This document shows, piece after piece, positions 6,411 to 6,816 of a stretch of 64,000 nt of DNA. The stretch is from an uncultured bacterium (GTDB lineage: Bacteria > Cyanobacteriota > Vampirovibrionia > Gastranaerophilales > Gastranaerophilaceae). The notes under the pieces were generated by a model. The model worked only from the letters and a program-made list of their open reading frames with translations. It ran no database searches and was not told the DNA's origin. The stretch is from contig CASDWH010000032.1 in the NCBI GenBank assembly GCA_949284715.1, forward strand, positions 1-64,000, written 5' to 3'. Both the position numbers and the translations under genes were made by a program. Each line of letters begins with the position of its first letter. Position 1 is the first letter of the stretch.

Positions 6411-6437
6411 AAAAAAGAGGCTTTAAACAAGCCTCTT
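6411..6437 (-). terminator. rho-independent terminator after tRNA-Ala
   Basis: AAGAGGC (6415-6421) and GCCTCTT (6431-6437) form a 7-bp stem. On the minus strand the stem is followed by a T run, so it fits termination of the tRNA-Ala transcript. Confidence 0.8.
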
Positions 6438-6444
6438 GATTAAA

Positions 6445-6520
6445 TGGTGGAGGCTAGGAGATTCGAACTCCTGACCCTCTGCGTGCAAAACAGATGCTCT
6501 ACCAGCTGAGCTAAGCCCCC
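6445..6520 (-). tRNA. tRNA-Ala (anticodon TGC), CCA encoded
   Basis: Minus-strand cloverleaf: acceptor GGGGGCT pairs with AGCCTCC, D arm GCTCAGCTGGTAGAGC, anticodon loop TTTGCAC (anticodon TGC) on a TCTGT/GCAGA stem, and T loop GTTCGAATC. The third acceptor pair is G-U, the known alanine identity element. Discriminator A is followed by an encoded CCA at 6447-6445. A rho-independent terminator follows directly. Immediately upstream lies a degenerate tRNA-derived tract whose first part can base-pair with this D arm. Confidence 0.97.
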
Positions 6521-6545
6521 ACGATGTTTAAATTCAATTTTCACA

Positions 6546-6614
6546 CTCAGCTGGTAGAGCATTGATATCTCTATTCGGAACCTTCCGGTTCCCGGGGCTG
6601 CTGAGCCAAGCCCC
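6546..6614. other. tRNA-derived inverted-repeat tract next to tRNA-Ala
   Basis: 6546-6561 is an exact 16-base inverse of the tRNA-Ala D-arm region (6495-6510). 6577-6592 is a 6-bp hairpin that on the minus strand has a GGAA (GNRA-type) tetraloop. 6594-6614 holds on the minus strand GGGGCTTGGCTCAGC, which resembles the first bases of tRNA-Ala, followed by AGCCCC able to close a hairpin. No intact cloverleaf can be drawn. A weak TTAAAT-18-TGTAAT promoter (6646-6617, minus) precedes it. The remaining sequence to truB (6623-6816) shows nothing else recognisable. Confidence 0.55.
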
Positions 6615-6816
6615 ATATTACACTCTATTTATATTTCAGCATTTAACAGGACAGATCCACCTGCAAATTCATTATATTATGCTGATTTTTTTTTGTAAAG
6701 AGGGGGAATTTAATCTTAAAAATTTGCCTTTATAAATCTTAATAATACTTCGTGCAATGAGTTTTTAAACAGACCGGAAGTTTGGGTTATAAAAGAAAAG
6801 TCGAGCAGGCAATATT

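Follow-up and report, generated by a model that had tools for sequence, protein, structure and literature searches.

The window analysed here, a 64,000-nucleotide stretch from an uncultured bacterium of the Gastranaerophilaceae, carries on its minus strand a tRNA-Ala(UGC) gene (6445-6520) recognized by a tRNA call and by its sequence, with a G3-U70 pair and an encoded CCA. Along this strand the order of features is a promoter-like site, a copy of the tRNA 5' end, an inserted core that we call C3, the word TAGAG, a strand that we call T', a boxA-like motif, tRNA-Ala itself and a terminator-like site. The promoter-like TTTACA-17-TATAAT (6671-6699, 11/12) lies upstream of the leader, followed by the copy of tRNA-Ala nt 1-15 (GGGGCTTGGCTCAGC, 6600-6614), which is identical to 6505-6519 at 14/15 positions. 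C3 (6577-6599) consists of AGCCCC, which closes a predicted hairpin A with the tRNA copy, and then hairpin B, GGAACC-GGAA-GGTTCC. TAGAG (6569-6573), which repeats the D arm's 3' strand according to the sequence and an alignment of ten Ala units, is able to pair with CTCTA at 6555-6559. T' (ATGCTCTACCAGCTGAG, 6546-6562) is the reverse complement of the intact D arm (6494-6510), its target, and such a complement recurs in relatives and at other tRNAs. The boxA-like motif (TGAAAATTGAATT, 6531-6543) sits between T' and the tRNA, and a terminator-like hairpin (6415-6437) lies past the gene.

An earlier note on this DNA had described a GNRA-capped 6-bp hairpin and a partial copy of the tRNA-Ala 5' end folded into another hairpin, and we find both, the first at 6577-6592 and the second at 6600-6614 with predicted pairing to AGCCCC at 6594-6599. 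Its perfect inverted repeat of 16 nt between the D arm and the upstream tract is in fact one base longer, with 17 nt at 100% complementarity (6494-6510 with 6546-6562). A chance origin of this repeat was ruled out, as 300 dinucleotide shuffles of 6440-6680 gave inverted repeats of 6 to 10 nt. By itself the 78-nt leader folds only modestly more stably than its shuffles (z -1.94), and leader and tRNA together are clearly more stable than theirs (z -4.25 and -5.99), an excess expected because of the 17-bp helix. Leader and tRNA lie between the promoter-like and the terminator-like site of the minus strand, which makes it likely from the sequence that the two are co-transcribed; a TTTACA...TATAAT-like stretch is also found upstream of tRNA-Ala in relatives, whether the leader is present or absent. 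Ala-TGC is called once among the 41 tRNAs of the window's genome, and the gene is therefore probably essential.

Among related genomes 58/59 match the window's query, mostly through the tRNA itself. Complete Ala leaders occur in G001 and G002, each of which has two units in tandem, and, in another family, in G049, where the leader is placed between tRNA-Ile and tRNA-Ala; two tandem units are found in G200 too. The earlier note had named absence or randomness of the tract in all relatives as evidence against its proposal, and this is not what G001, G002 and G049 show. Within one genus the leader is present in the window's genome (G000), G001 and G002 and absent in G003 and G004, where the upstream flank continues directly into tRNA-Ala at the point where G000 has the copy, a pattern in which gain and loss are not separated. 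In another member of the genus, G006, the 5' part of tRNA-Ala (L027:1451-1560) is scrambled and receives no tRNA call, reflecting either true damage or misassembly. Hairpin B is kept in 10/10 of the alignable Ala units as 6-7 pairs with differing letters. A loose C3 pattern, which misses the window's own copy and others and so gives a partial census, matched 30 places in 26/374 genomes; C3 is present at 9 of the 30, in 8 cases preceding a called tRNA-Ala and in one at the end of a contig, and the other matches resemble chance (reversed control: 7). In this loose-pattern search of 374 genomes C3 was found only as an Ala leader and not as a dispersed repeat.

Similar units accompany other tRNA genes. 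In the window's genome a copy of the 5' end lies upstream of 11/41 tRNA genes (at least 11/14 identical; mismatched tRNA pairs 2.2%) and a copy of the 3' end downstream of 6/41 (mismatched pairs 0.9%), with none of the 41 having both. Most of these copies are interrupted by an inserted core, and many units also carry the reverse complement of an intact tRNA arm. Pro-CGG, near a contig end, has a T' and makes a twelfth leader, and the Arg-UCU leader copy (L403) resembles a tRNA-Arg that lacks its T arm, scoring 26.5 bits, under the tRNA cut-off. Downstream units of this genome have a different core and a flank repeat that reaches about 75 nt at Asp, and the predicted folding of this core is strong in some units and not in others, with z ranging from -4.35 to +0.54.

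A pattern of an anti-D strand, 20-50 nt and the D arm was found in 59/383 genomes of the order (reversed pattern 0), preceding Ala, Val, Lys, Phe, Gly, Thr and other tRNAs. In a sample of the phylum it occurs in 13/194 genomes, all 13 from the window's own family, and in 0/109 of those that share just class or phylum with the window's genome. Beyond the phylum, a sample of one order, Bacteroidales, gave matches in 3/295 genomes; the four units of G387 are clear, and the two single matches look like chance. Among the matches listed for a named collection there are at least nine loci of Bacteroidales relatives (titled Paludibacteraceae, Paludibacter, Symbiothrix or uncultured Bacteroidales) with a 5'-end copy and complement before Gly or Trp tRNAs, others titled Gastranaerophilales, and many further ones with no copy that look like chance. 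One viral contig, IMGVR_UViG_3300037423_001736 (L279), holds the single anti-D match in viral contigs. Contigs frequently end in or near units (e.g. L005, L326, L348, L415, L492), so that the assemblies probably under-count them. Our searches of open-access papers showed no report of such tRNA-end units.

The Lys-CUU, Leu-UAA and Met units of the window's genome share a second core, C1, which is distinct from that of the window and has 45 nt in the form ACTCTGCCGA-stem-TAAAT-stem-GAGAGG. C1 was found in 37/60 genomes of the family with up to 22 matches per genome, often in tandem. Among 83 distinct copies, 23 lie in sense orientation in D-arm copies, at nt 8-19 in the D arm of 5' copies, and 10 in antisense orientation in T-arm copies, in the T loop of 3' copies beyond the tRNA; 18 have a repeated flank and no tRNA call, many of these being inner tandem units, and 32 are free of a repeated flank and are intergenic or at a locus edge. 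C1 also occurs in copies of the 5S gene end (L332). Counted over the 45-nt cores only, the stems of 46 distinct cores gave 464 Watson-Crick, 12 G-T and 1 A-C pairs among 552 cells, with up to four Watson-Crick pair types at a single position. Such paired change, together with 12 G-T against 1 A-C, shows that the plus strand folds as RNA or as single-stranded DNA.

In one genus C1 is located in the apical loop of R1. This repeat is dispersed, and its 3' end is present in 18/23 genomes of the genus in up to 66 copies (reversed control 0); copies with differing flanks were 14/14 from G231. The R1 loop GATAAGGAGC-AAAGCG-ACGTG is empty in 17 copies and filled by C1 in 27, counts for which sampling favours filled copies, and two other junctions were seen once each; the 95 'other' matches, with duplicates left in, are mostly loose 13-mer matches. 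Other R1 loops hold other kinds of hairpins, one of them a reversed C1. We regard the empty and filled loops with their three junctions as the best evidence that such cores move and settle in loops. The ends of R1 (L477-L496, L497-L521) are TGTYCGAGAAAAATTCGT and GACACTAGATTA. By eye we saw no short target-site duplication at R1 ends or C1 junctions, and no transposase or terminal site was found for the units.

REP palindromes are short, intergenic in bacteria and mobilised by RAYT (Y1) transposases, and the units here are likewise short palindromes in bacterial intergenic DNA. Unlike in that system, however, Y1 genes here are flanked by their own palindromes: a Y1 transposase was found in 6/18 genomes and is absent from the C1-richest, G106 and G034, and in the seven Y1 loci read the palindromes are not C1, one locus having a C1 inside a tRNA-Gln end copy. 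This distribution and these palindromes rule out RAYT/Y1 machinery as the mover of C1. The window's own genome has a Y1 (RAYT-like) transposase gene (L354:1420-1969, G000:C1) with TAGGGTGCAATTTATTGCACC palindromes on its flanks.

The reading that we favour, with confidence that we would put at about even, is that the tract upstream of tRNA-Ala is a member of a class of proliferating hairpin-type units nested in partial tRNA-end copies, rather than a dedicated tRNA switch. The class would comprise small units of roughly 70-200 bp within partial copies of tRNA gene ends, in the order gene-end copy, a folded core that occupies the copied arm's loop, remainder of the arm, T', flank and intact gene. 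Cores would settle in the loops of DNA or RNA that forms hairpins, such as tRNA D and T arms, 5S and the loops of a dispersed repeat, and the end duplication that accompanies the unit would keep the tRNA gene intact. T' might arise by inverted copying of the arm or might be a target-matched guide strand. A unit on the 5' side would join the transcript, with its boxA-like motif, and since most of T' is already base-paired within the leader, the leader probably folds on itself first, after which the tRNA folds and, we infer, is processed. For C1, spread and insertion into loops are demonstrated by comparison of its copies; that the window's C3 belongs to the same class is indicated by shared anatomy only. 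Against the favoured reading, 11/25 of the C1 5' units have no strong T', C3 was found only as an Ala leader, neither a transposase nor a terminal site nor a short target duplication was found, and the core of the 3' units folds unevenly in prediction. A more specific version, that these are structure-seeking mobile elements with hairpin-loop-inserting cores, T' being a self-reprogrammed homing guide or the trace of inverted copying, and with 5'-side units domesticated together with boxA as leaders of essential tRNAs, we consider unlikely.

The strongest competing explanation is that the structured tract and its boxA-like motif form a working leader that governs transcription or maturation of tRNA-Ala, a serious rival to the nested elements although we think it rather unlikely. 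It could take the form of an anti-D strand held by the leader's own D-arm copy and released, under some condition, to trap the tRNA before RNase P cleavage, or of a boxB/boxA-like antitermination site. The first form is close to the proposal of the earlier note that the leader could pair with the tRNA before 5' processing and act as a switch, and the pairing on which that proposal depends is both real and recurrent. The anti-D search pattern leaves two positions free per strand, and of the pairs scored there 180/186 are standard at 93 loci with a 5'-end copy (171 Watson-Crick, 9 G-U; 1 A-C, 5 other) and 46/88 at 44 matches that have no such copy (40 Watson-Crick, 6 G-U), related species in these counts not being independent. 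The 93-locus pairing and folding sets exclude repeated sequences, N-containing loci and loci with no tRNA called over the D arm. In C1 units found without using T', T' is enriched as well, which counts in favour of the nested elements: 14/25 of the 5' units reach 8 complementary as against 46/504 with other isotypes, and 10/11 of the 3' antisense units as against 24/96. When all 41 tRNAs were scanned for complementarity, the top seven leaders (score at least 10) were Ala, Phe, Asn, three Pro and Lys-CUU. The three Pro leaders have a T' that matches GCAGCTTGG, a stretch of the tRNA absent from the leader copy. In other units, such as Phe of the window's genome or the Met units, the strand tracks pairing within the leader more than the tRNA, so that both pairings occur.

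In predicted folds of leader and tRNA together, T' on the tRNA is the energy minimum in 93/93 loci, all of them chosen for having T' and assessed by thermodynamic prediction only. The trapped fold is favoured over the separate parts by a median of -12.4 kcal/mol in the 93 loci and by -13.8 at the window's locus, values that ignore tertiary contacts, modification, proteins and the order of folding. In the leader alone T' is mostly base-paired internally, the window's T' at just 8/16. As expected of a tRNA-folding switch, the leader has a strand that complements the tRNA downstream of it and whose pairing is predicted in silico to win over the cloverleaf. Against a working leader stands the wobble pattern: away from the two free positions G-U pairs do not outnumber A-C pairs (4 against 14 at the first three 5' flanking positions), and this polarity, used as a test for RNA, is inconsistent for T' with the tRNA and clear in C1. 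A T-box riboswitch is not indicated by Rfam, which gave no T-box match in the window at gathering score or in 16 loci at E up to 5.

The antitermination form draws on the boxA-like motif, which is found at 11/12 of the tRNAs with a 5' copy and at 7/29 of the others (shuffles 1.5%, two mismatches allowed). The 16S gene was located in 3/8 genomes searched, and TGAAAATTGAATA occurs in the 16S rRNA leader of one of them, G046 (L446), upstream of the gene, with a near match in a second; a boxA-like sequence shared with a 16S leader, as an rrn-type boxA antitermination leader would have, is therefore exact in 1/3. In 9/12 leaders of the window's genome a promoter-like site precedes the first copy, and the 5' units look transcribed. 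A promoter between T' and the tRNA was considered and set aside, with just weaker candidates (7-8/12) in 5/12 leaders. In rRNA boxB-boxA leaders, hairpins are likewise followed by a boxA-like motif close to where a stable-RNA transcript begins (PMC10250234, PMC4807359), the leader here differing in being made from a tRNA copy and its complement. The boxA-like motif and the conservation of the Ala leader over two families suit a working leader at least as well as they suit an element, and the retention of hairpin B in every Ala unit speaks for it too. However, for 30/41 tRNAs of the window's genome no 5' copy was counted, and equivalent units, T' included, lie antisense and downstream of tRNA genes. 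Beyond the 3' end a complement is unable to trap the nascent tRNA, so that a switch alone is insufficient, and as a complete account of these units it is weakened. Together with the C1 data, the antisense 3' units make the element the better general reading. Both can be true if elements have been domesticated.

That the tract is neutral debris, neither element nor function, left where tRNA ends were repeatedly duplicated in tandem and templates were switched at hairpins to yield pseudo-ends and inverted arms, is in our view distinctly unlikely. The gene-end copies are indeed tandem, their presence is patchy, the intact gene is always retained and some units have no T' (L310) or are truncated (Val-UAC), but the same C1 sequence recurs at dozens of unrelated sites with its stem kept by paired change, R1 copies have clean ends at up to 66 places, and hairpin B is retained. 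The earlier note had offered debris of a duplicated tRNA or an integration event as its alternative, and this came nearer the mark than the switch because the units are insertions nested in partial tRNA-end copies; 'debris' is nevertheless too weak a word for a widespread, structured class whose hairpin is kept across the Ala units. Inserts of integrative elements are flanked by repeated tRNA ends, as the inserts here are, yet a remnant of an ordinary integrative element or self-splicing intron in tRNA-Ala is highly improbable, as the inserts are just about 50-130 nt, such an origin does not predict T', and at gathering score Rfam gave no non-tRNA family, introns included, in the window or at leaders among 26 loci (5S rRNA in L332 apart).

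Nested hairpin elements of this kind would have their closest counterparts in organelles. Palindromic GC clusters of yeast mitochondrial DNA such as GC42, a 42-nt hairpin, resemble C1-type units in length, in their many copies and patchy distribution, in merging with other clusters and in an unsettled mechanism, and are reported to make short target duplications (PMC4478555). In contrast, the units here are chromosomal and bacterial, sit in loops of tRNA arms and of a dispersed repeat, and bear a gene-end copy with its reverse complement and no short target duplication that we could see. The RHE of sponge mitochondrial DNA, as far as the source describes them, are diverse hairpins, intergenic beside tRNA genes and within genes, in which tandem insertion produces double hairpins (PMC2800124); they share with our units this structural diversity, position near tRNA genes and doubling, but are organellar, and a tRNA-matched strand is not among the features described for them. 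Judged by the features of both groups, a short conserved hairpin is seen in the C1 stem and in hairpin B of C3 (10/10), many dispersed copies are found for C1 and not for C3 (Ala leader only, as sought), filled and empty homologous sites exist for C1 in R1 and for the Ala leader within its genus, and a short target-site duplication was not seen. E. coli tyrT distal repeats each begin with the tRNA-Tyr 3' end and, like the units here, are tandem and contain a tRNA gene end, but they are known from the 3' side only and are not known to have a reverse complement of an arm.

If nested elements are the right explanation, tRNA genes of a whole bacterial order would host spreading hairpin units that mirror their own arm, and the cell would have to solve the conflict posed by T' to make essential tRNAs. 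The units would then be a bacterial counterpart to mitochondrial hairpin elements, for which the way of moving has not been settled, and would provide a natural test of how a tRNA folds during transcription in the presence of a perfectly matched competing strand.

Two further observations concern units of other make-up. Between tRNA-Thr(TGT) and tRNA-Thr(GGT) a GC-rich segment (L374:847-989) with repeated GCGGAACAAAG-like words is possibly a decayed unit. The larger core on the 3' side, which has no Rfam family match, spans about 75-95 nt at Gly-CCC (L380), Lys-UUU (L381), Asp (L387), Arg-CCU (L395), Val-GAC (L397) and Leu-CAG (L404), and the motifs common to it, on the tRNA strand, are GCGCGAG, GCAGAGG, CGTTTAATGC and CGAGCAAGA.
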